Source of the DNA: Citrus sinensis
Lineage: Eukaryota > Streptophyta > Magnoliopsida > Sapindales > Rutaceae
Direction: 5' to 3'
Length of the DNA: 64,000 nucleotides
NCBI RefSeq assembly: GCF_022201045.2
Contig: NC_068558.1
Coordinates: 49,517,501 to 49,581,500 of the forward strand
Shown piece by piece: positions 3,001-20,403 of this stretch (the stretch's first letter is position 1; each line of letters opens with the position of its first letter). The translations under genes and the position numbers were made by a program. Under the pieces are notes generated by a model. It ran no database searches. It saw only the letters and a list, made by a program, of their open reading frames with translations, and had not been told where the DNA came from.

Positions 3001-5418
3001 ATGAACTACAAGATACCAGATGCATAAAGTGAATCAATGGAGACCAACACAGGAGTTCACCTAGTAAAGAAGTGAAATTTTCTATTGTGAAGAAAAATTA
3101 AGAAAGTAACCAAGCAAAAACATAGTAAAATGTCATTGATAGCATACGATCATAAAAAGGTTAGCATATATGAAGCCACAACTAAACTAAAATATAACCT
3201 TCTTATGCTAACGGACATTGGAGCCCAAGCAGGCTACAAAAAAGAACCACATGAAGACAGTTCAAATTGCCACTGGAAAATGGTAGGTAAGAAATAAAAA
3301 TAAGCAAAACATTAAAAAATAGGAACAGGCAATGTTTCATAGAATTACAAAGACCATTCAAAAAAAAAAAGAAAGACATTAATTCAAAATAAAATTAATA
3401 GTATCACATTCACCATGCCAGAGGAATGAACAGATGATATCACAGTATCGCAACAAATAATAAGCCCACAAAAGAAATAGAACTGTAGTATATAGTTTGT
3501 CAATGCACCTTTACTAACACTGCGCCCAAGGTTGTTGTTTACACGCAAAGGATCGATGACATTAAAATGTTTTGAAACAAAGGGTTGGCCCTGATTTTCT
3601 TGGCCACCAGGAAAAACAGCATATGTAGAACTACAAGCATCAAGAAACAATTTGCTAAGAAGTAACACTCCACCATCTTTTCGAGGAGGTTCCGCTGTAA
3701 AACAGACCAAGAGGAAACATCAAGCTTGACGATCACTTATGCGAGGATCAAAATTAGAATTTTCAAGCAAAATATCTATACCCGTTACATCTGGAAGCGA
3801 ACTGATGGGTACAGGACCCCAAAGGCTTAGACAGAAGTTGTCCCAGTCAAACTTGCTAAAAAACTCCAGAAAACGATAAAGGACCTACAAGTGGAAAGAA
3901 AAAAACTATCAGCCTACTAAAAGGACAAATGTATGAAAATAGTGAGAAAATGTTCACATAGCCACCTCAAGCGGACCAGCAAAAGAATTGTTGAAAACAT
4001 GAAATATGTAAAGAACCAATGTCTCCAAGGCATATGTTGATATAAGTCCATGGTGAGCACCCAATATTCGGCTTTCATAATAACACCAAGCCTTTATCAG
4101 TATAATGCTGCGCTTGAAAAGATGATTCTGATTTATCATATGATCAACCTATTTAAGCAGAAAAAAACAGTTAGCAAATAAACATAATCAGCATAATGGA
4201 TTACAATTTGAAAAGGAAACGTTCAATGGCAAAGTTTGAAGGATGCACCACGGACCTCCTCAAGGAAACAAAGAGTGCATAACCCACCAAGCTGGTTAAA
4301 TGATATGTCTACCACAATATTTTCGACAAGGCACTTTATTATCTTTACCTACAAATAATAACAGAAAAAGAATGTTAAATTCAGTACAAAACAAAAAACT
4401 TGAGGCAAAATGGGCTTATATAGGTTACATTAGAATTTATGCAGAAAATCCACAAACAAGAATTTAGATAACCATAATAATAGTAACGGTTTAGTGGACA
4501 AACAAGCATCTTCTCAGATGAATAAATCACCACAATCAGTCACAACGAATAGCATTGCAACTCTGAAACTAAAATTTCAGGGGATAAATCCAAACTTATC
4601 TCCAGTTAAAATAAATCACAAGTTTGAAATTTGTAAAACTCTATCAGATGGAAATTTTGCATCAAATAATACAGGGCATGAATGGAAGATATGAGCCACA
4701 ATCTTTAGAAAACTAAGGTACGATGAAACTCACTTCTGCCTGAATGTACTGAACCTCCTTGACACGGAATTCAGCATGCTCATTCTTCTCTTCGTTTTCC
4801 AACATATCACGCACCTGATGAGCCCATGTGTCTTTCAAAGTTTGATTATCACTAAAAGCTGTTAAGTCAATGTCCCCATCTGGTAAATAGGTCTTAAGGG
4901 GTACAGACCCAAAAGTAAAAACCTGTACACGAAAATAATCACTAGTGAATAATAACATAAAATAAATGAAAATGCAAAAGCTTAAATGATGCCAATTTGT
5001 TCAACATCCCATCACATTCACTAAATATAGGATGATTGCAACTATTTATGCCTGTGTTTTGACTAATAAGTTAAACCGGGATATACAACATTAACAAAAT
5101 TCAACATAATACATGTTCATTTGGTCGAATCAATAAAGCAACGCAACATAAACAAATTCTCACATATATGTAAAAGTTGGCAACCTGACAAGGAACGCAT
5201 TTGCTAATGAGGCGCTGAACATAATCTGCAACAGCATTGCGGCGTTCTTCGGAAAAGGGGTTGGGCTGAATGCAGGCAATAAGCTCTGCAGTTCTCTCCT
5301 CTGCCTTCAACCATCGTTCCGGGTCAAGTGCTCGGATCACTGAACCCGCTTCATTGGGCAATAACCCGTTTAATAATAGCCCACTTGGTGGCTCTCTCCG
5401 CCCTTCATGCTCTCCCAT
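1..5418 (-). CDS. PAP/OAS1-type nucleotidyltransferase, copy 1 (3' end beyond window)
   Basis: Seven exons read on the minus strand: 5185-5418, 4734-4922, 4256-4348, 3966-4148, 3782-3884, 3509-3694 and 2217-1 (open at the window edge). All junctions are GT-AG and the frame is continuous. Exon 2 holds the nucleotidyltransferase signature FGSVPLKTYLPDGDIDLTAF, with GS and the DxD pair. Exon 3 supplies a likely third acidic residue in VVDIAFNQLGG. Exons 4-6 match the PAP/OAS1 substrate-binding region (LFKRSIILIKAWCYYESR; NNLGRSVSKG), which continues into exon 7. The rest of exon 7 is a long Ser-rich, low-complexity tail. Plant members of this family are poorly characterised; the fold suggests nucleotide transfer to RNA, but the substrate is unknown. 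Compared with copy 2, this copy keeps the family residues I remember as conserved, so it is probably the functional one. Confidence 0.85.
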
Positions 5419-7156
5419 GCAATCCCTTTAATTTTCGCTTTGCTAATCTTTACCCAAAATGTCACCGCCACCACCACCACAACTACTAAAACAACTTGCC
5501 GATCAAACTAAGTTTTTCGAATTCAAAGTCTATCAGTTTTGTTTTTATGCTTGAGTTTCAATTATTATTAACCTTTTTCTTAAGTAATAGTAAGAAGAAT
5601 TTTAGGTTTTGAAATTTATATAACCTAAAGAAGAATACAAAATTGTAAATTTATAACAAACTGAATATATTAGTAAAGAAAAAGGATATGCTGAAACCCT
5701 GAAGATAAAAATAAGAAGCAGATTAGTGATACAGATTGGTTGAGATTTATCAAAACCTAAGGAGAATGTTTTGAAGTTGGAAGCGTCGGCGAATCAACGA
5801 TGGAAAGTATAAAGATAGTTGTGAGGAGGAAGAGGGACCAAATAGCAAATGTAAAAGAGGGGATTGGGGCATTAAATTAAATGGTGGATAGATTGAGGGG
5901 CGGATCAAAATTAGGTTTCGGGAAGAAAGACAGAAAGAGAGGGCGTGTTTGGTCACAGGAATTTGGAATTGCTTTGTGGAGGCGAGGTTTTGACGATGAG
6001 GAAGTTTGTGCATTCGAGGGTTTCTAATTTATTTTTTTATTTTTAAATAATGAAAAAATATATTTGAGAAATAGAAACAGAGAGAGAAAGAAAGAGGGAG
6101 GATGATAGAATCTGGGAAAGGAACACGGAGAGAGAGCAAGAGGGAGACAGGGCAGACGTAATAAAAAATAAATTAAATTAAAAAAATTTTTGAATTTTTT
6201 TTCTCTTACCGTTCTTTCCATTTTCCTTTTTTTATTTAAGAAGATTTTCGTTTTTATTTTTATTATTCGCCGCTGCCGTTTTGTACTTTTCCTTAATGAG
6301 TTGGGCTAGCCAATTGAAATTATGCAGGCCCATATAAGTGTTGGGCCCAATTTCTGTTGCAGGCAATTGAAGCAGGCCGCAGTAGTGATGGCAAACTACA
6401 TATATAAAATAAAAAAACACTACAAGTCCACATAAAATAATATGGATTCCAATATATATATATATAATTTATTTTTTACTTTAGTTTCATTTATGTTTTT
6501 TAATTAATTCTATTATGTTTTTCATTTAACTTATATATTTTTATTTAATTTTAATTTAGTAAATAATTTAATTAAAAAATAATGCGATATCCTTTTTTCG
6601 GCCGGATCCGGATTCGAATTTGGATATGTACGGATTCTATAATTTAGCATCTGGATCCACATTTTTTAATATGCGGATCCAAATTTTTCCATATCTGAAT
6701 GTTCCAAATCTTTGCGAATTCAGACTGTACCCCGATATTTTTACCGTCCCAAGGCCGCAGCCTCATTGCCTTTATATACTTTTTTGTCATTTTAAAGCCA
6801 TAAATTTATTTCAGCTGTCTGCGTTTATAAAAATCCACAATAAATCATATGATAAGAAATTTTGAAAATTTAGATTTTGTTTATATTCTCTCACGGGAAT
6901 CATATCATCTGAATAACATAAGTTCATTTAAAACTTCGAACTGGATCAATTAATTTAAATAAATTGGATTGTATTTAATAGGATTTTAAATCAAATAATT
7001 ATTTTTAATTACCATTTCGATTATGAAAATAAACAAACAATTAATGGATGGTGCAGTATCTTGATTGAAATGCCTTGAAGGTTTCTTGTTCTCCTTTTTC
7101 TGGAAATAGCACTTTTGTTTTTCTCACTCTAAATTGCTAATTACAAGAAGATTGTG
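11..7156. repeat. Tandem segmental duplication, copy 1
   Basis: This 7146-bp unit is repeated directly downstream at a few percent divergence judged by eye. At the left end the offset to copy 2 is exactly 7146; small indels reduce it to about 7114 near 5 kb. One example is a segment at about 2834-2880 that is absent from copy 2. The unit starts inside the last exon of the nucleotidyltransferase gene and ends about 1.74 kb upstream of its start codon. Copy 1 therefore keeps the original 3' end of the gene but only a short stretch of original upstream DNA. Confidence 0.95.
5419..7123. other. Upstream region of copy 1, no gene seen
   Basis: AT-rich leader and promoter region of the copy 1 nucleotidyltransferase. 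It contains a purine-rich stretch at about 6075-6160 and a cluster of GGATCC/GGATTC-like words at about 6600-6680 that recurs in copy 2 near 13730-13810. At 6999-7008 it has TTATTTTTAA, the unoccupied site of the transposon found in copy 2. The short ORFs here show no family resemblance. Confidence 0.6.
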
Positions 7157-10100
7157 AAACCGGCCATATTGTAAATTTTGCCAATGGCTAGGAAAGTCAC
7201 TGTTGAGAATGTCAAACTTGTGCTCCAATGGTTCGACATGAGCAGACCTTCTCATAGAAATTGAAGTACTTGACGCCTCTGACTGATCAAGTCCCTCAGA
7301 CATATCAAACTTTTGACCAGAATCACTGCTTCCCAGGCCCTCTTCCCCACTAAAATGGCTTGTTGATGCATCAGAGGTTCCTGACTCAGTTGGGAAGTTG
7401 TACATTGGAAGCATCGTAAAAAAGCTAACAGGTGGACCTGTGGGATAAAAGGTCCAGGGAACAACCTCTGAATTGTCCGGGGACCTTTGTCGAGCACCAT
7501 GACCTAAGAGGACAGGAGCAATCGGAATCACTGATTCTGACCCACTTGTCTGAGCTTCTTCAGATCCGGGCATTTGATGCCTTGGAATATGTAAAGGAGC
7601 AAGGGATTGAAGTCCTACACTCCTGTCTGGTATTTCAGACCCCATGGTTGGAAGCAGATTCCATTCTTTGTTGTCTTCATCAGCCTGAACAGAAGAATTT
7701 TCTGACACACTACTACCTTTTCCATACACTGGAGAAGCAGTAGAAGCCATTTTTCTACCCCTTTTTTCTTTAGCTGGTTTTGAGACCTTTGCCGATGATC
7801 CTTCCCAAGAACTCTCAGAATTGGTTTTACTTTTCACAGAACTTGTATGTGAAGCAGGCATAGATCTTGAACTGGCAGATCTGTCATCAAAGTAAACCTC
7901 GTTACCTCTACTATCTAGATAATGGAAAGAATCTTCATGATCTTCCCTCATTGACTCCCTGGCATCTTTGTTGAATTTATGTGGAGCTCTTCTAGCACTG
8001 CTAGAGGCACCTATCTGAGATGAAGGAAGAAGGTTATAACCAGCTGAAGTTGATTGCTGCTTATCGTCAGACTGAAGCATCTCAAAATTTCCATTCTCAA
8101 GATCAAATCCGCCACCAGAACCCCGGTCCTGCTGATGCCAGTAATCATTATCACCCTCCATAGGGTTCGTTTCCACAGGACCAAAATTTTCATTACCGCG
8201 TTCAAGTGAATCTTCCGAGCTTGAGGTCAATCCAACACCAGGAAAAAAATGGGTTAATGGTGAGGAAACCAAACTTTGGGGAAACTGCATGTTGGCACCC
8301 GATGCAGTCTCAATGAAGGGAAGATTGGTGGGAACCATTCCACCCAAATTTCTCTGAGAATATCCCATTGAAGTTAGAATTGAATGTGGTAGAGGAAGAG
8401 GTAAGTGACCAGAAGCTAAATTCAGTGGAATGCGGACCTGTCCATTAAAACCATGAGCCATGGAAGATGCCATCAAGTTCACAAGATCTTGCTCTTCCTG
8501 TTGCATCCCTTGTGTCCCTGCAACAGAAGAAAATTCTTCACTCATAGCACCCAAGACCAGATCATCACCGTAACTATTAAACACACTGTTTGAATCAGCA
8601 GTAGCATCAAAGCTCTGACAGGATGCAGTGTGACTAACAGATGAAGGATTGTCAGTTGAAGATCTAATGTCATGGCTTGCCAAAATATCAGATTCCAAGT
8701 TCTTCCTTCTACTATTCTCCAACTTTGAAGAAGACATCTGGCATTTTACACTTTCTGGGGGTTTCTTAGGCCGCCCTTGGGAGGTAACTTCACCATACGT
8801 GTCTGTAAGCTCGGGGCTAGAGCGTGTCCGTGCAAACAGATATCTACCCTTAATGTCACCAATCATTGTATCAGGTTTAAAACTTCTGTTACCTTTATCA
8901 TTATTTGCATTCTGATTAATACTAGCATCCCTTCTACCCTGATCAAAAGCCCTGGTGCTATTCAAGTTACCATAGTTCTTTTGGGTTTGTGTACGAGAAA
9001 CTGTGGAAACAGAACTGACCCTAAAAGTACTTTCAACAGGACTATTAATATGCTGAGATGAAGCACTACCATGCGATCTGTCAACTTGAGATTCACAACC
9101 AATGGAAATCTCATTTCTTTTGCCACCTAAACCTGAATTGTTGTGGAGATTCTCAGGCTCATGTTGATGGTCTCGATTTGACAATCGCAAGCGCCACAAG
9201 TCATTCCTTGGTGCATCCGGACGAATGCCGCTACCATGTCTATCCCGGGTATTCATAAAAAACTGATTTACTTCATTATATAAGTCCTCATTGGGACAAT
9301 CAAGTAACCTTGCCAGCCCTTTAGCCCCAAATGCAAATGCCGTGCGTATCCTAAAGAAGTTACCTGGCCAATTTATATAGACAGAAGGAAACAAATTACA
9401 AAATTTCAGATAGTAGAAAATCAGACCAAGAATTACAAGCACATCAAAAGCACTACAATCTCATAGCCGATACTCCATATTTGTGCACCAATATATTGAA
9501 CTCAGACCATATAAATGTATTTGTGCAAGCTTATAAGTATATGTTCCATACCATTTGCTTCACAGATGCAGTGAATTTTGCCAAAATGTGTGAAGGTTAT
9601 CGACGGCTACACTAAAAATAGGATCATACAAAGAATATAAAAGATGTTTTGAGGTAAAAATAGATTATTTGAAGGTTATTAACAACTACAGTGGACTCAT
9701 TTAGAATTCCATCCCAAAGAAAAAGTGAAGCCAATGAAGTCACAAACACAAAACACTTGTAAACAAATAAATTATATTATAAAAGGTTATCTTCATCATA
9801 ATGCCTATTAAGCCCTTTACATTTATTAAAAATATTTAAATATAGAAACCCCATAGTTAATATAAACATATCTAGGATCATCTGAGCGTGACACCTTGGG
9901 CGTAGCTCTGCTGGCCGCGTATGCACTTTGCACCCACGGTCGCCCAACTTTGAATGATAATATGGAAAGGGTTGATGCGGGTAAGGTTCTCATCCCCATG
10001 TATTTATTCTGCTCTTGGTTTTATTTCATTTGTTAAAAGTAAGCACCACCACAATAAGTGTGGGAGGGTTAGAAAAAGTCACAGGTAACTTCTTAGACAA

Positions 10101-12532
10101 TGCCCTTCTCGAGAATAAATCAACTACAAGATACCAGATGCATAAAGTGAATCAATGGAGACCAACACAGGAGTTCACCTAGTAAAGAAGTGAAATTTTC
10201 TATTGTGAAGAAAAATTAAGAAAGTAACCAAGCAAAAACATATTAAGATGCCATTCATAGCATACAATCATAAAAAGGTTAGGCATATATGAAGCCACAA
10301 CTAAACTAAAATATAACCTGCTTATGCTAACCGACATTGGAGCCCAAGCAGGCTACAAAAAAGAACCACATGAAGACAGTTCAAATTGCCACTGGAAAAT
10401 GGTAGGTAAGAAATAAAAATAAGCAAAACATTAAAAAATAGGAACAGGCAATGTTTCATGGAATTACAAAGATCATTCAAAAAAAAAAGAAAGATATTAA
10501 TTCAAAATAAAATTAATAGTATCACATTCACCATGCCAGAGGAATGAACAGAAGTGATCACAGTATCGCAACAAATAATAAGCCCACAAAAGAAATAGAA
10601 CTGTAGTATATAGTTTGTCAATGCACCTTTACTAACACTGCGCCCAAGGTTGTTGTTTACACGCAAAGGATCGATGACATTAAAATGTTTTGAAACAAAG
10701 GGTTGGCCCTGATTTTCTTGGCCACAGGGAAAATCAGCATATGCATACCTACAAGAATCAAGAAACGATTTGCTAAGAAGTAACACTCCACCATATTTTC
10801 GAGGAGGTTCCGCTGTAAAACAGACCAAGGGGAAACATCAAGCTTGATGATCACTTATGCGAGGATCAAAATTAGAATTTTCAAGCAAAATATCTATACC
10901 CGTTACATCTGGAAGCAAACTGATGGGTACAGGACCCCAAAGGCTTAGACAGAAGTTGTCCCAGTCAAACTTGCTAAAAAACTCTAGAAAACGATAAAGG
11001 ACCTACGAGTGGAAAGATAAAAACTATCAGACTACTAAAAGTACAAATGTATGAAAATAGTGAGAAAATGTTCACATAGCCACCTCAAGCGGACCAGCAA
11101 AAGAACCATTGAAAACATGAAATATGTAAAGAACCAATGTGACCAAGGCATAAGATGATATAAGTCCATGGTGACCACCCAATATTCGGCTTTCATAATA
11201 ACACCAAGCCTTTATCAGTATAATGCTGCGCTTGAAAAGATGATTCTCATTTATCAAATGATCAACCTATTTAAGCAGAGAAAAACAATTAGCAAATAAA
11301 CATAATCATCATAATGGATTACAATTTGAAAAGGAAACGTTCAATGGCAAAGTTGATGCACCACGGACCTCATCAAGGAAACAAAGAGTGCATAACCCAC
11401 CAAGCTGGTTAAATGCTATGTCTACAACAAAATTATCGACAAGGCACTTTATTATCTTTACCTACAAATAATAACAGAAAAAGAATGTTAAATTCAGTAC
11501 AAAACAAAAAACTTGAGGCAAAATGGGCTTATATAGGTTACATTAGAATTTATGCAGAAAATCCACAAATAAGAATTTAGATAACCATAATAACAGTAAC
11601 GGTTTAGTGGACAATCAAGCATCTTCTCAGATAAATAAATCACCACAATCAGTCACAACGAATAGCATTGCAACTCTGAAACTAAAATTTCAGGGGATAA
11701 ATCCAAACTTATCTCCAGTTAAAATAAATCACAAGTTTGAAATTTGTAAAACTACATCAGACGGAAATTTTCCATCAAATAATACAGGGCATGAATGGAA
11801 GACTATGAGCCACAATCTTTAGAAAACCAGGGTACGATGAAACTCACTTCTGCCTGAATGTACTGAACCTCCTTGACACGGAATTCAGCATGCTCATTCT
11901 TCTCTTCATTTTCCAACATATCACGCACCAGATGAGCCCATGTGTCCTTCAAAGTTTGATCATCACTAAAAGCTCCTAAGTCAATGTCCCTATCTGGTAA
12001 ATAGGTCTTAAGGGGTACAGACCCAAAAGTAAAAACCTGTACACAAAAATAATCACTAGTGAATAATAACATAAAATAAATGAAAATGCAAAAGCTTAAA
12101 TGATGCCAATTTGTTCAACACCCCATCACATTCACTAAATATAGGATGATTGCAACTATTTATGCCTGTGTTTTGACTAATAAGTTAAACCGGGATATAC
12201 AACATTAACAAAACTCAACATAATACATGTTCATTGGGTCGAATCAATAAAGCAACGCAGCATAAACAAATTCTCACACATATGTAAAAGTTGGCAACCT
12301 GACAAGGAAAGCATTGGATAATGAGGCGCCGAACATAAGCTGCAACAGCATTGCGGCGTTCTTCGGAAAAGGGGTCGGGCTGAATGCGGGCAATAAGCTC
12401 TGCAGTTATCTCCTCTGCCTTCAACCATCGTCCCGGGTCAAGTGGTCGGATCACTGAACCTGCTTCATTGGGCAATAACCCGTTTAATAATAGCCCACTT
12501 GGTGGCTCTCTCCGCCCTTCATGCTCTCCCAT
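7124..12532 (-). CDS. PAP/OAS1-type nucleotidyltransferase, copy 2, C-terminally truncated duplicate
   Basis: Seven exons on the minus strand: 12299-12532, 11848-12036, 11369-11461, 11084-11266, 10900-11002, 10627-10812 and 7124-9363. They total 3228 nt, for 1075 residues, with GT-AG introns and no internal stop. Domains are as in copy 1. The last exon is cut by the duplication junction at 7157-7161. After YGRF it reads ten foreign residues (HNLLVISNLE) derived from former upstream DNA, then stops. Several positions that look conserved in the family have changed relative to copy 1: PDGDID to PDRDID, DLTAF to DLGAF, STYALETL to SSYALVTL, NTWDRHGSG to NTRDRHGSG. The DxD pair itself is kept. It is either a young decaying paralogue or a gene with a new C-terminus. 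Transcription cannot be judged from sequence. Confidence 0.8.
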
Positions 12533-13560
12533 GCAATCCCTTTAATTTTCGCTTTGCTAATCTTTACCCAAAATGTCACCGCCACCGCCACCACAACTAC
12601 TAAAACAACTTGCCGATCAAACTAAGTTTCTCGAATTCAAAGTCTATCAGTTTTGTTTTTATGCTTGAGTTTCAATTATTATTAACCTTTTTCTTAAGTA
12701 ATAGTAAGAAGAATTTTAGGTTTTGACATTTATATAACCTAAAGAAGAATACAAAATTGTAAATTTATAACAAACTGAATATATTAGTAAAGAAAAAGGA
12801 TATGCTGAAACCCTGAAGATAAAAATAAGAAGCAGATTAGTGATACAGATTGGTTGAGATTTATCAAAACCTAAGGAGAATGTTTTGGAAGTTGGAAGCG
12901 TCGGCGAATCAACGATGGAAAGTATAAAGATAGTTGTGAGGAGGAAGAGGGACCAAATAGCAAATGTAAGAGAGGGGATTGGGGCATTAAATTAAATGGT
13001 GGATAGATTGAGGGGCGGATCAAAATTAGGTTTCGGGAAGAAAGACAGAAAGAGGGCGTGTTTGGTCACAGGAATTTGGAATTGCTTTGTGGAGGCGAGG
13101 TTTTGACGATGAGGAAGTTTGTGCATTCGAGGGTTTCTAATTTATTTTTTTATTTTTAAATAATGAAAAAATATATTTGAGAAATAGAAACAGAGAGAGA
13201 AAGAAAGAGGGAGGATGATAGAATCTGGGGAAGGAACACGGAGAGAGAGCGAGGAGGAGACAGGGCAGACGTAATAAAAAAATAAATTAAATTAAAAAAA
13301 AATTTGAATTTTTTTTCTCTCACCGTTCTTTCCAATTTCCGTTTTTTCTTTAAGAAGATTTTCGTTTTTATTTTTATTATTTGCCGCTGCCGTTTTGTAC
13401 TTTTCTTTAACGAGTTCGGCTAGCCAATTGAAATTATGCAGGCCCATATAAGTGTTGGGCCCAATTTCTGTTGCAGGCAATTGAAGCAGGCCGCAGTAGT
13501 GATGGCAAAATACATAAATAAAATTATAAAAACACTACAAATCCACATAAAATAATATGG

Positions 13561-13597
<37 letters not shown>

Positions 13598-14127
13598 TTT
13601 TTTACTTTAGTTTCACTTATGTTTTTTAATTAATTCTATTATGTTTTTCATTTAACTTATACATTTTTCATTTAAATTTAATTTTGTAAATAATTTAATT
13701 AAAAAATAATGCAATATCCTTTTTTCGGTTGGATCTGAAATCGAATCGAGATTCGTACGGATTCTACAATTTAACATCTAGATTCACATTTTTTAATGTG
13801 CGGATTCGAACTTTTCCGTATCTAAATGTTCCAGATCTTTACAGATTTAGGTTGTACCCCAATTTTTTTGTCGTCCCTAGGCCGCAGCCTCATTGTCTTT
13901 ATGTACTTTTTTTGTCATTTTAGAGCAATAAATTTATTTCAGCTGTCTGCATTTATAAAAATCCATAATAAATCATATGATGGGAAATTTTAAAAATTTA
14001 GATTTTGTTTATATTCTCTCAAGGGAATCATATCATCGGAATAACATAAGTTCATTTAAAACTTCGAACTGGATCAATTAATTTAAATAAAATTAGATTG
14101 TATTTAATAGGAATTTAAATCAAATAA
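12533..14127. other. Upstream region of copy 2, no gene seen
   Basis: Leader and promoter DNA of the copy 2 gene, parallel to 5419-6998 of copy 1. It differs by a longer (AT)n run at about 13566-13592 and scattered substitutions. The proximal 1.6 kb upstream of the start codon is intact; the transposon lies just beyond it. Confidence 0.6.
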
Positions 14128-14137
14128 TTATTTTTAA

Positions 14138-14205
14138 GAAAAATTCTATAATACCGTAATAAAAATTACGGTATTAATGCCGTAATTACTGTACACCGTT
14201 GGATT
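14138..14205. repeat. Left terminal inverted repeat of the Mutator-like element
   Basis: Begins GAAAAATTCTATAAT and pairs with the right end. It contains its own perfect hairpin, AATACCGTAAT then AAAA then ATTACGGTATT. It ends at ACCGTTGGATT. Confidence 0.85.
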
Positions 14206-14325
14206 AAATCAACAGTATGCAATAACTATAACATAATAAAAAAATTTGTAAATTTTTTTCATTAACCGGTTGTTAACCGGCTAAACATTTATTTAAAAAA
14301 ATTAACTGGTTAAAATTTTCAAAAT

Positions 14326-14356
<31 letters not shown>

Positions 14357-15530
14357 TTTAAAACCGAATCTACAAAAATCCAAATAGAATCTCATAATTC
14401 GAAGGGCACAACATCGAGTCTAAGAAATTGCAGCACGCCGGATCTTGTATTTTCGAAGCGATTGGGCTTGCTGGCTGACCCAAATTTTGTTTTCCTCAAT
14501 CGTTCCTCTTTTCCTGCCAATCATCGCTTTGAAAACTGCCTGAAGCCAAAAAGAAGCGAGAAATAAGAAGCTCTACAACGGTTCATGTTGGTGAAGGGGC
14601 TGAGTTTGTGTTCCTGCCCATCACCGATTTGAAATCTGCTTGCAGCAAAACAGAAGCGGATTTGAAATTTGCCCATCGCCAAGGCGTTCCTCTTTAAATC
14701 CATCACTAAATACCAATAGATTATTTAATCGGACAAGAAGAAGCTCTACAACAACTTGGTTGAGGAGAACCAGGCTGTGTTCGTATTCGTGAAGGGGTTT
14801 CGGAACAACGATACCGGCTGGGCATCAGTGATTCAGGAGGTAAACTCTTCTTAAGACTTTTTTTAACCCTTTTTTAAGTTTTTTAAGTGGATTTTTTTAT
14901 AATTTTTGGATACTGGGCATCTGGATTGGTTGTGGTATTTTGTTTGGTTTCCAAGAGAATTAAGGGATAAAGAAATTTTGATGAGATTTGACAGTGCCTG
15001 AAGCGGAGTACCAGGTGTTGATCATAAGTTGTTGCTGCTGCCCTCAATCTTATTGATTGGAAGAGAAGGCAAGGCAAGTTCCAGCCACTGATTCCCCTCC
15101 ACCGCGTTTGCATTGTTGTTAATTCCACCAAGTAAGCCTATTTTTGGTATATTTGTTTGTTTGCTACAAATAATTTCAACATAAAATTTAATAGAATTGT
15201 TTTGTGTCACTTGGGTTAATGAAGAAATAGAAACTGAACCTTAATTTGGTGCGATGTATAGGTTTGGACGAAATTAAAAGTAAATTTCGTTAATTGTTGT
15301 GCCCTTGATTTTGTATTCTCATGTGCATTAATTTTGGTTGGAAGTTTAATAGAATACGAGGTTCATCAACTGCAAATAATTTCAATATCAATGAATTTCA
15401 TCAACTCTTAGTTCAATAGAAAGTGAATTATTGTTTATACAAATAAATTTACCAGTTAGAATGAGTTCCACTGTGGTAATGAAGGGAAAATTAAGTCTAG
15501 AGTTAGCCTAGAGAAGCATGTTTGAAACGT
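14206..15530 (+). other. Element interior with exon-like fragments of an unrecognised gene
   Basis: Contains an open stretch at 14729-14839 with a protein-like composition (it includes LVEENQAVFVFVKGF) that ends at a good donor, GAG|GTAAAC. After an intron-like stretch comes an acceptor-like TTTGACAG near 15000, and then a second stretch at about 15032-15129 encoding IDWKRRQGKFQPLIPLHR, which ends at CAA|GTAAGC. Frames between the pieces are broken by stops. A roughly 50-bp segment at about 14511-14560 is repeated at 14611-14660. This is consistent with captured host gene fragments. I could not identify the parent gene. Confidence 0.4.
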
Positions 15531-15534
15531 AGGG

Positions 15535-16290
15535 ATGATTTGCTGCTGTATTTGGGATGATTTGCTGTTGTTCTTGGGTTAAATTTTTCTGGTGTTTTGG
15601 GCTTCATTTGCTGCTGATTTTGGGTTAAATTTTTTGCTGTTTCTGGGTAAATTAGCTGCTGTTTTTAGTCTAATTTTTTGCTGTTTTTGGATCAATTTAC
15701 TGCTATTTTTGGGTTATATTTTCTGCTGTTTGGAGGTAAATTTTTCTGGTGTTTTGGGCTTCATTTGCTGCTGTTTTTGTGTTAAATTTTCCGCTGTTTC
15801 TCGGTAAATTTGCTGCTGTTTTTCAGTTAAATTTTTTGCTGTTTCTGGATAAATTTACTGCTGTTTTTGGGTTAAATTTTCTGCTGTTTTGTGGTTAAAT
15901 TTTCTGCTGTTTTGGGCTTCATTTGCTGCTGTTTTTGTGTTAAATTTTCTGCTACTTCTGGGTAAATTTGCTGCTTTTTTTCAATTAAATTTTCTGCTGT
16001 TTCTAGATAAATTTACTGCTATTTTTGGGTTAAATTTTCTGCTGCTTCTGGGTAAATTTGCTGCTGTTTTTCAATTAATTTTTCTGCTGTTTCTGGATAA
16101 ATTTACTGCTGTTTTTGGGTAAAATTTTCGAGTGTTTTGGGCTTCAGTTGCTGCTATTTCTGTGTTAAAATTCTGCTGGTTTTGGGTTAATTTGCTGCCG
16201 TATTTCAGTTAAATTTTTTTTCTGTTTTTGGATAAATTTACTACTACTTTTGGGTTAATTTTTTTGCTGTTTCCGGATATATTTGCTGTT
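15535..16290. repeat. Minisatellite with ~22-bp units (CTGCTGTTT motif)
   Basis: Degenerate tandem units of about 20-24 bp built around AAATTTnCTGCTGTTTTTGG. The longer phrase TTTTGGGCTTCATTTGCTGCTG recurs at about 15595, 15752 and 15909, giving a higher-order period near 157 bp before the pattern degrades. The plus-strand ORFs here (repeats like LLLLGKFAAVF) are a by-product of the repeat and are not credible proteins. Confidence 0.8.
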
Positions 16291-16619
16291 GTTTTTGTGT
16301 ATGGAGCTGGCCGGAAAATGGTCATGATGCATTTTGAATGGAGAAGGATGGGGATTGATAGTAAAAGTTGCTTGTGTTGTTCCTGCTGCTACTTGCTTCA
16401 TTTGAGCTTCTACAATCCATTGATAATAGAGGGAAGAAGAAAGAGATGATGAGAAAGTAGATTTTATCTCAAGTTTATTTAGTTAAGTTGGATGGATTTT
16501 ATCTCAACTCATTAAAAAGTAGATCAGGTTAGAATTTCACTAACCCTATCAAACCCAACTCATGCCCACCCTTATATCATTCTATCTAAATCATAAAATG
16601 CCAATAATCAACGTTAGAG

Positions 16620-19600
16620 TGGTAAATTGGTCTACAAAATTTAAAAAAAAATAAAAAATAGAAAAAAAACTAGTAAATTAATGTTGGAGTTGTAAATTAT
16701 AAGAAGAAATTGTAAACAAAACAAAAACTTAGAAAAATGACATAAAACTTGTAAATTGACATTAAGTGTGAAATGAAACAAAAAATATGTAAATCATACA
16801 TAAAACTAGTAAATTAATGAAAAATTTGGTAAATTAATATTAGAGTTGAAAATTGTAAGAAGAACTTGTAAACAAAACAAAAACTTAGAAAAATGACATA
16901 TAACTAGTAAATTGACATTAATTGTGAAATGAAACAAAAAATATGTAAATCACACATAAAATTAGTAAATTAATGAAAAAATGAGTAAATTAATGTTGGA
17001 GTTGTAAATTGCAAGAAGAACTTGTAAACAAAATAAAAATTTAGAAAAATGACATAGAACTTGTAAATTGACATTAAGTGTGAAATGAAACAATAAATTT
17101 GTAAATCACACATAAAACTAGTAAATTAATGGAAAAATGAGTAAATTAATGTTGAAGTTGTAAATTGCAAGAAGAACTTGTAAACAAAACAAAAACTTAG
17201 AAAAATGACATAGAACTTGTAAATTGACATTAAGTGTGAAATAAAACAATAAATTTGTAAATCACACATAAAACTAGTAAATTAATGGAAAAATTGGTAA
17301 ATTAATGTTAGAGTTGTAAATTGCAAGAAAAACTTGTAAACAAAAAAAAAATTAGAAAAATGACATAGAACTTGCCAATTGACATTAAGTGTGAAATAAA
17401 AAATTAAATTTGTAAATCACACATAAAACTAGTAAATTAATGGAAAAATGAGTAAATTAATGTTGGAGTTGTAAATTGCAAGAAGAACTTGTAAACAAAA
17501 CAAAAACTTAGAAAAATGACATAGAACTTGCAAATTGATATTAAGTATGAAATGAAACAAAAAATATGTAAATCACACATAAAACTAGTAAATTAATGGA
17601 AAAATTGGTAAATTAATGTTAGAGTTGTAAATTGTAAGAAGAACTTGTAAACAAAACAAAAACTTAGAAAAATGACATACAACTAGTAAATTGACATTAA
17701 TTGTGAAATGAAACAAAAAAACATGTAAATCACACCTAAAACTAGTAAATTGATGGAAAAATTGGTAAATTAATGTTGGAGTTGTAAATTGTAAGAAGAA
17801 CTTGTAAACAAAACAAAAACTTAGAAAAATGACATAGAACTTGTAAATTGACATTAAGTGTGAAATGAAACAAAAAATATGTAAATGACACCTAAAACTA
17901 GTAAATTGATGGAAAAATTGGTAAATTAATGTTGTAGTTGTAAATTGCAAGAAGAACGTGTATACAAAACAAAAACTTAGAAAAATGACATAGAACTTGT
18001 AAATTGACATTAAGTGTGAAATGAAACAATAAATGTGTAAATCACACATAAAACTAGTAAATTGATGGAAAAATGAGTAAATTAATGTTGGAGTTGTAAA
18101 TTGCAAGAAGAACTTGTAAACAAAACAAAAACTTAGAAAAATGACATAGAACTTGTAAATTGACATTAAGTGTGAAATGAAACAATAAATTTGTAAATCA
18201 CACATAAAACTAGTAAATTAATGAAAAAATGAGTAAAATAATGTTGGAGTTGTAAATTGCAAGAAGAACTTGTAAACAAAACAAAAACTTAGAAAAATGA
18301 CATAGAACTCGCAAATTGACATTAAGTGTGAAATGAAACAATAAATTTGTAAATCACACATAAAACCGGTAAATTAATGAAAAAATGAGTAAATTAATGT
18401 TGGAGTTGTAAATTGTAAGAAGAACTTGTAAACAAAACAAACTTAGAAAAATGACATAGAACTAGTAAATTGACATTAAGTGTGAAATGAAACAATAAAT
18501 ATGTAAATCACACATAAAACTAGTAAATTGATGGAAAAATGAGTAAATTAATGTTGGAGTTGTAAATTGCAAGAAGAACTTGTAAACAAAACAAAAACTT
18601 TAAAAAATGACATAGAACTTGTAAATTGACATTAAGTGTGAAATGAAACAATTAATTTGTAAATCACACATAAAACTAGTAAATTAATGGAAAAATGAGT
18701 AAATTAATATTGGAGTTGTAAATTGTAAGAAGAACTTGTAAACAAAACAAAATTAGAAAAATGACATAGAGCTAATAAATTGACATTAAGTGTGAAATGA
18801 AACAAAAAATATGTAAATCACACATAAAACTAGTAAATTGATGGAAAATTGAGTAAATTAATGTTAGAGTTGTAAATTGGAAGAAGAACTTGTAAACAAA
18901 ACAAAAACTTAGAAAAATGACATAGAACTTGTAAATTGACATTAAGTGTGAAATGAAACAAAAAATATGTAAATCACACATAAAACTAGTAAATTAATGA
19001 AAAAATCGGTAAATTAATGTTGGAGTTGTAAATTGCAAGAAGAACTTGTAAACAAAACAAAAACTTAGAAAAATGACATACAACTAGTAAATTGACATTA
19101 AGTGTGAAATGAAACAAAAAATATGTAAATCACACATAAAACTAGTAAATTAATGAAAAAAATTGGTAAATTAATGTTGGAGTTGTAAATTGTAAGAAGA
19201 ACTTGTAAACAAAATAAAAACTTAGAAAAATGACATACAACTAGTAAATTGACATTAAGTGTGAAATGAAACAAAAAGTGTGTAAATCACACATAAAACT
19301 AGTAAATTGATGGAAAACTGAGTAAATTAATGTTGGAGTTGTAAAATGCAAGAAGAACTTGTAAACAAAACAAAAACTTAGAAAAATGACATACAACTAG
19401 TAAATTGACATTAATTGTGAAATGAAACAAAAAATGTGTAAATCACACATAAAACTAGTAAATTGATGGAAAAATGAGTAAATTAATGTTGGAGTTGTAA
19501 AATGCAAGAAGAATTTGTAAACAAAACAAAAACTTAGAAAAATGACATACAACTAGTAAATTGACATTAATTGTGAAATGAAACAAAAAATGTGTAAATC

Positions 19601-20095
19601 ACACATAAAACTAGTAAATTAATGAAAAAATTGGTAAATTAATGTTAGAGTTGTAAATTGTAAGAAGAACTTGTAAACAAAACAAAAACTTATAAAAATG
19701 ACATACAACTAGTAAATTGACATTAATTGTGAAATGAAACAAAAAATGTGTAAATCACACATAAAATTAGTAAATTGATGGAAAAATGAATAAATTAATG
19801 TTGGAGTTGTAAATTGTAAGAAGAACTTGTAAACAAAACCAAAATTTAGAAAAATTACATAGAACTTGTAAATTGACATTAAGTGTTAAATAAAACAAAA
19901 AATTTGTAAACCACACATACAACTAGTAAATTAATGGAAAAATAGGTAAATTAATGTTAGAGTTGTAAATTGTAAGAAGAATTTGTAAACAAAACAAAAA
20001 CTTGTAAATGTTACATATAACTTGTAAATCAACATTAACTTGTAAAAGTTTCATAAAACTTGTAAATCACACATAAAATTAGTAAATGTAACCTG
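16620..20095. repeat. 156-bp tandem (satellite-like) array, about 22 copies
   Basis: The phrase ATGTTGGAGTTGTAAATTG and its variants recurs every 156 bp. Anchors lie at 16681, 16837, 16993 and 17149, and the last is near 19953. Each unit breaks into pieces starting GTAAAT or GTAAAC with lengths 38, 20, 20, 19, 20 and 39, that is eight ancestral steps of about 19.5 bp. Because 156 is divisible by three, frames can stay open across units; one minus-strand ORF at 17585-18205 encodes repeated 52-residue Phe-rich segments. I do not call it a gene. Confidence 0.95.
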
Positions 20096-20182
20096 AAACT
20101 TGAACAAAAAAGAGTAATTACCTGCTATTTAGGTAACAGGTTACTTATTTATTTAGAATTAATGGTAGAGATTTTTTATTCA

Positions 20183-20250
20183 AATCTAACGGTCCACGTC
20201 CATTACGACATCAATGCCGTAAATTTAGCTACGGCATTATAGAATGACCC
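20183..20250. repeat. Right terminal inverted repeat of the Mutator-like element
   Basis: Read on the minus strand it begins GGGTCATTCTATAAT and contains a hairpin with arms AATGCCGTA and TACGGCATT, like the left end. It is followed by the target duplication. Confidence 0.85.
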
Positions 20251-20403
20251 TTATTTTTAATTACCATTTCGATTATGAAAATAAACAAACAATTAATGGA
20301 TGGTGCAGTATCTTAATTGAAATGCCTTGAAGGTTTCTTGTTGTCCTTTTTTTTTTTGGTTTTTCTCACTCTAAATTGGTAATTACAAGAAGATTGTGAA
20401 ACC

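Follow-up and report, generated by a model that had tools for sequence, protein, structure and literature searches.

The 64,000-nucleotide window of Citrus sinensis DNA analysed here (contig and positions C3:49517501-49581500; genome searched: 299.7 Mb in 11 contigs) contains a Mutator-like element (MULE) with two subterminal tandem arrays, which most likely represent inherited, length-tolerant modules of the element. With a probability of roughly 85%, this element belongs, as a non-autonomous copy with an internal deletion, to a FAR1-type MULE family in which both arrays have been inherited, moved and resized together with the element. An original prediction, deduced from the sequence alone, had recognised a Mutator-type transposon at 15535-20095 carrying a satellite array as cargo. 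The element type is retained, while its limits turned out to be wider, as sequence reading and a scripted check place the true ends at 14138 and 20250 (6113 bp). The cargo view is not upheld, since array evidence accompanies all 40 right ends recovered by the query search described below and a transposase-bearing relative has both arrays, which argues for a built-in, inherited part instead of single-copy cargo.

The element is bordered on both sides by a perfect 10-bp target-site duplication (TSD), TTATTTTTAA, at 14128-14137 and 20251-20260, and its inverted arms (14125-14205 and 20183-20263, 81 nt, 72% complementary) are degenerate terminal inverted repeats (TIRs). The same window also holds the empty paralogous site with a single TTATTTTTAA at 6999-7008. 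The left flank of the element is 94% identical to 5387-7008 and the right flank 90% identical to 6999-7161, and the overlap of both matches, 6999-7008, is precisely the lone copy of the target. Tandem repeats account for (760+3423)/6113 = 68% of the element. The following features can be deduced (open reading frame, ORF):

6830..7172, plus strand: empty paralogous site without insertion, single TTATTTTTAA at 6999-7008, from alignment with the joined flanks
14128..14137, no strand: 5' TSD TTATTTTTAA, identical to 20251-20260, with a single copy in the empty paralogue (6999-7008)
14138..20250, plus strand: whole non-autonomous MULE, 6113 bp, from TIR, TSD and empty site; relatives have other TSDs
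14138..14205, plus strand: left TIR, diverged (81 nt with 72% complementarity; matches of 73-78% to the left ends in six relatives of greater distance)
14206..15537, plus strand: left internal region, 99.75% over 1200 bp versus the C5:1.6 Mb copy; no stop-to-stop ORF of at least 150 aa, the longest listed having 86 aa
15538..16297, plus strand: left subterminal minisatellite, ~22.5-bp unit, ~34 copies (TRF), with homologous blocks in relatives
16298..16664, plus strand: remnant of the inter-array region, without transposase, from comparison with the C5:1.6 Mb copy
16665..20087, plus strand: 156-bp tandem array of 22 units, the last ~150 bp being a distinct terminal unit (TRF, unit decomposition)
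20088..20250, plus strand: right end with TIR (88-100% identity at the best 40 of 97 candidate places; pattern with 72 matches, control 0)
20251..20260, no strand: 3' TSD TTATTTTTAA, identical to the 5' copy

As to the surroundings, window positions 5387-7161 and 12501-14137 are paralogues in tandem with 94% identity across 1.6 kb, and a further near-identical segment lies 1.35 Mb off on the same contig.

The 163-bp right-end query, which contains no array unit, recovers its 40 places on all nine large contigs, and the right-end pattern giving the 72 matches tolerates up to two mismatches. A junction pattern, joining the last bases of the array to the first bases of the right end, matches at 50 places (control 0). 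Array evidence at the 40 right ends of the query search consists of a listed array within 3 kb in 29 cases, directly adjoining units in the 10 inspected ones (L067-L076, among which L068 has about one unit and L076 about 1.4) and the junction motif in the remaining one. This genome search excludes that the 156-bp unit occurs only in the window without related elements. Conversely, a right end could be assigned to 38 of the 47 array clusters listed. For 35 of them this end is itself listed; C3:1.66 and C7:17.20 possess diverged or partial ends, and the junction motif follows 1.7 kb on from the C1:8.92 cluster.

For a closer comparison, 11 loci were assembled from adjacent stretches, selected among places with family matches. 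Here, the 156-bp array meets the right end without any gap in 10 loci and with a gap of 4 bp in one. Perfect 9-10-bp TSDs are found in six of the 11 loci, two of them after moving the end by 1-2 bases. These correspond to five distinct target sites, on C3, C5, C6 and C9, rather than six because the copy at C3:48.18 Mb shares TSD and flanks with the window copy.

The history of the array can be followed in its units. In the 11 loci, the terminal ~150 bp shows mean identities of 0.82-0.95 (mean 0.93) to the terminal pieces of other elements versus 0.69-0.80 (mean 0.78) to the remaining units of the same array, with up to about 4 points of this gap coming from the length difference (~150 versus ~156 bp). 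As the terminal piece is thus closer between elements than within its own array, the boundary between array and right end predates the spread of the copies. Unit identity within an element is on average (0.85-0.94) little above that between elements (0.83-0.92). Although the C5:1.6 Mb copy differs from the window copy in both flanks and TSD, its units, one fewer in number, are collinear with those of the latter; this order at an unrelated site indicates that the array was carried whole with the element. The C3:48.18 Mb copy, located 1.35 Mb away, was considered as a further independent insertion and rejected, as it shows the flanks of the window copy (99.5-100% identity, left flank ~420 bases longer) and the common TSD, and hence is a segmental duplicate. 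Its array has 36.3 units versus 22.3 in the window copy. In the best-match mapping, which is confined to units of 150-160 bp, it reads in window numbering as units 1-14, 13-14 again and one 15-like unit, followed by 4-14 again with small differences, 15 and 17-22. The gain in units in this array is largely block duplication. The comparison of unit numbers among related elements that had been proposed with the original prediction reveals, besides this difference between duplicates, a range from 8.9 to 36.9 units over the 11 loci.

The window copy does not encode a transposase. A relative at C3:30200767-30223605 (22.8 kb, TSD AAATTTATA), however, has both arrays and, between them, a 746-aa frame, open from stop to stop, that encodes FAR1 (PF03101, E 6.8e-18, residues 46-136) and MULE (PF10551, E 9.4e-27) domains. 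Pfam matches on this frame are restricted to FAR1, MULE, ZSWIM1-3_RNaseH-like and Transposase_mut, with no PHD finger. Putative SWIM- and CCHC-type motifs were seen by eye, and no Pfam SWIM match was obtained at E 0.01. In line with the assignment to MULEs, for which TSDs of 8-11 bp are characteristic, the family shows a TSD of 10 bp in the window copy, TIRs and a MULE transposase of its own in C3:30.2, the N-terminal FAR1 domain of which corresponds to the Jittery/FAR1 group. Pieces of this transposase are present at C5:21.3 (97% and 93%), C6:7.28 (90%), C3:26.64 (87%) and C1:8.27 (90-92%), where arrays and right ends are listed as well, and the transposases of sister families reach 64-69%. 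The C5:1.6 copy retains stretches flanking the transposase region of C3:30.2; about 2.2 kb of this copy are missing from the window copy, which bears a short filler at about 16457-16469 instead. Having lost these 2.2 kb in addition, the window copy is a deletion derivative.

A second ORF of C3:30.2 (262 aa, L040:8554-9339, minus strand) has matches in four relatives and presumably resembles, as judged by eye, plant Ulp1/DUF1985-type ORFs. It gave no match to any Pfam family, DUF1985 included, and is absent from the best 150 of 332 DUF1985 candidate places. Elsewhere, at C4:19391872-19401900, seven DUF1985 matches occur at an exact spacing of 1607 bp, that is, as a tandem array of coding sequence. 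At C9:20.4, a cytochrome P450 fragment (PF00067, L042:2316-3188) is located between two left-minisatellite blocks, as in gene-capturing MULEs, and P450-like stretches are also found in C3:30.2 and C4:6.25 (73-88%).

Comparison of the copies shows that their common ancestor already possessed a right array ending in the distinctive terminal unit. The FAR1 and MULE domain-containing transposase of the full-length relative probably works in trans on the ends of such non-autonomous copies as the one in the window. On a jump, the array travels as a block, as the collinear arrays at two unrelated sites show, and the number of units then shifts by block duplication and loss, probably due to unequal exchange or gap repair. 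For the family as a whole, we infer past movement from these sequence comparisons.

Several observations weigh against this reading. The DNA search scores the best 40 candidates, so that diverged copies are missed. Outside these 40 places, the right-end pattern has 34 further matches, six of them with a listed array, four more with the junction motif and one, L077, with units. Hence, 28 of the 34 are without listed array, among them L078, in which inspection revealed no units, and the 22 remaining ones may be ends of related array-less elements. No TSD was detected in five of the 11 assembled loci, where some ends are truncated or rearranged; one locus was covered except for 5,000 bases. Transposase pieces at C3:10.13 and C4:13.68 (82-85%) are tied to no array here, and assembly may partly account for the C3 duplicates. 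Moreover, for nine of the 47 array clusters listed no link to a right end was established: six end abruptly (L060-L065), L066 meets another inverted end, and the other two are the inner array of the nested C7:17.2 locus and C4:13.66. As separate observations on such arrangements, the ~5.5-kb array of L061, which has no right end, runs directly into leucine-rich-repeat-like coding sequence (by eye), and at C9:5942352-5953845 two family right ends in opposite orientation are about 2.2 kb apart, with a minus-strand array 5.7 kb from the nearest right end and other sequence between.

The amount of the unit in the genome bears on the role in satellite formation that the original prediction had envisaged. 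A 27-base unit motif (up to three mismatches) matches 983 times in the searched genome (control 0), with 100 of these places listed. As it detects 221 of the roughly 252 units that make up the decomposed arrays of the 11 loci, the genome as a whole should contain about 1,120 units (175 kb). Long free-standing arrays of a classical satellite were not found, the largest of the 11 decomposed arrays having 37 units, although an assembly can lack satellites. That delivered arrays expand into free-standing satellite DNA is accordingly considered improbable. Arrays indeed move, as evident from the collinear copy, and change in length, the six abruptly ending arrays have no right end, and precedents exist in Tetris (PMC4079207) and in LTR elements of Lathyrus (PMC7004042). 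However, the longest decomposed array has 37 units, the genome total is low, and the end-less arrays are not longer than the element-borne ones among the extents listed. Seeding is thus not seen among the listed clusters, 38 of 47 of which sit at right ends, with the proviso that assemblies can lack satellites. The converse, capture of a long-standing genome-wide satellite by the element, finds no support and is very improbable. The unit is AT-rich and satellite-sized, but it mostly adjoins element ends, its total amount is small, and the terminal unit is a feature common to the family. Least credible of all is an assembly artefact or chance repeat, for which nothing weighty speaks apart from the C3:48.18 Mb duplicate with its nearly identical flanks 1.35 Mb off, whereas right ends on all nine large contigs and five distinct target sites on C3, C5, C6 and C9 contradict it.

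Compatible with inheritance of the arrays as element modules is the further explanation that they are working parts, namely platforms of ~20-bp motifs for the transposase or an anti-silencing protein, kept under selection. By analogy with VANDAL elements, whose VANC proteins bind tandem motifs (PMC5735166), a binding role for either factor is possible, and the explanation including selection is put forward tentatively, as we judge it to be rather less probable than its contrary. In its favour, array evidence extends to all 40 right ends, including transposase-less copies such as that in the window. In GTAAA-centred cores, G (0.950 versus 0.814) and C (0.991 versus 0.896) are better conserved. 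TTGTAAA has 62 matches in the window array versus 6.2 expected, an excess to be expected of any tandem repeat of the unit. On the other hand, A and T positions are not better conserved in these cores, the overall values are nearly equal (0.939 versus 0.933 for the rest), and 57 of 156 rotations are as good (217 units). Constraint on a core motif is therefore unsupported overall, the G and C positions alone excepted, and the conservation result speaks against selection on GTAAA-centred cores. TTGTAAA is absent from the left minisatellite, and arrays down to about one unit exist (L068). In addition, published VANC6 target motifs, as well as a presumed VANC21 motif (its core was not found in the text of PMC5735166), gave no match in the window arrays and the C3:30.2 156-bp array, and the 262-aa ORF has neither a Pfam match nor a place among the best 150 DUF1985 candidates. 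Still less probable, and rather speculative, is an extended scenario in which tandem arrays arose at both ends as platforms for recognition, that on the right developing into a 156-bp higher-order repeat, and in which array length might tune transposition or escape from silencing. This would amount to VANDAL-like anti-silencing in a FAR1-type MULE and would provide a ready supply of satellite seeds.

A coding function of the 156-bp array was also considered. Per 52 codons of the consensus unit, each minus-strand frame contains 1-3 stop codons and each plus-strand frame 5-7. An open minus-strand frame extends over 210 aa in the window array and over 181-259 aa in five of the 11 loci, and such a frame is also open in 317 of 2000 shuffled units. 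Unit variation by phase of three is uneven (0.26, 0.34 and 0.40 in 102 units; significance not computed). Weighing stops and shuffled-unit frames against this uneven variation, a coding role is considered unlikely.

Both arrays that had been predicted, a ~22-bp minisatellite and about 22 copies of a 156-bp unit, were found by TRF. The 156-bp array (16665-20087; 22.0 copies, 93% matches, score 5601) has one dominant period (self-match 0.79 at lag 156) and a weaker inner one of about 20 bp (0.49 at lag 20); by eye, each of its units consists of about eight degenerate ~20-bp subunits. For the minisatellite (15538-16297), TRF gives periods of 22, 45 and 158 with scores of 599, 655 and 820 and matches of 69, 74 and 80%, respectively, so that the predicted higher-order period near 157 bp agrees with the best-scoring period. 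Ungapped self-match, in contrast, favours lag 45 (0.67) over lags 135 (0.66), 315 (0.65) and 158 (0.64). Of the 14 minisatellite blocks of the 11 loci, 11 have lag 45 in first rank; lag 157/158 never leads and is within the top 12 in 12 blocks. As all these lags are multiples of 22.5, with 158 = 7 x 22.5, the 158-bp period is real and not privileged. A privileged 157-bp period is hence unsupported by self-match although TRF scores 158 best, and the coincidence of ~157 and 156 bp that had been emphasised is weaker than it appears, 158 being one of several multiples of 22.5.

Backed by TSDs, an empty site, a relative that bears a transposase and a record at the level of single units, the window copy and its relatives provide a clean plant case of a cut-and-paste transposon that keeps, moves and resizes a satellite-sized array. 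This corrects the natural misreading of a built-in part as cargo and makes the question of whether transposons found satellites testable, by means of unit numbers and free arrays across related species.

The original prediction knew of few such cases in Mutator-type elements; MULE-type precedents are known from animals (PMC6446971, PMC10218199). Among plants, no MULE with satellite-sized arrays beside its ends was found in the accessible parts of the literature searched, which did not include subscription literature, short-motif repeats of VANDAL aside. The accessible text of PMC13359780 does not mention satellites, and PMC6377768 is a paper on a Citrus satellite. Arrays are also carried by Helentrons of Crassostrea (PMC7492417), Tetris of Drosophila virilis (PMC4079207) and LTR elements of Lathyrus (PMC7004042), all of which are element kinds other than MULEs; for Tetris and the Lathyrus elements longer arrays are reported, whereas none were seen here. 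Closer by its transposase is CitMule from Citrus, a FAR1-SWIM-MULE element of 6.9 kb with 9-bp TSDs and degenerate TIRs, in the accessible text of which the word 'tandem' has no occurrence (PMC4334395). Compared by description only, such CitMule/Jittery-type elements share with the present family a transposase with FAR1 and MULE domains (and SWIM in theirs), 9-bp TSDs and short degenerate TIRs (PMC4334395, PMC6446971). VANDAL elements of Arabidopsis, placed among MULEs (PMC6446971), are likewise plant elements with tandem repeats, short motifs in non-coding regions that are bound by the element-coded VANC (PMC5735166); here, neither a VANC6 motif nor a DUF1985 match was found. Phantom, in its aphid members, has a mini-satellite after the transposase ORF (PMC6446971) and differs by belonging to another transposase group and by its animal hosts. 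Structurally similar, too, is Rehavkus of arthropods and annelids, a group of MULE-like cut-and-paste elements in which a mini-satellite precedes the 3' TIR (PMC6446971), an arrangement also present here. In Rehavkus-1_TC of Tribolium, the inverted termini contain the 164-bp satellite TCsat23, mostly as 5 and 8 monomers and never more than nine (PMC10218199). Rehavkus has a PHD-finger transposase and animal hosts, while the Citrus family is of FAR1 type, without PHD finger among its Pfam matches, and bears up to 37 units of 156 bp at one end, with an unrelated minisatellite at the opposite end. The family thus differs from the known systems in combining a plant FAR1-type transposase with two unrelated subterminal arrays, one of them reaching 37 units.

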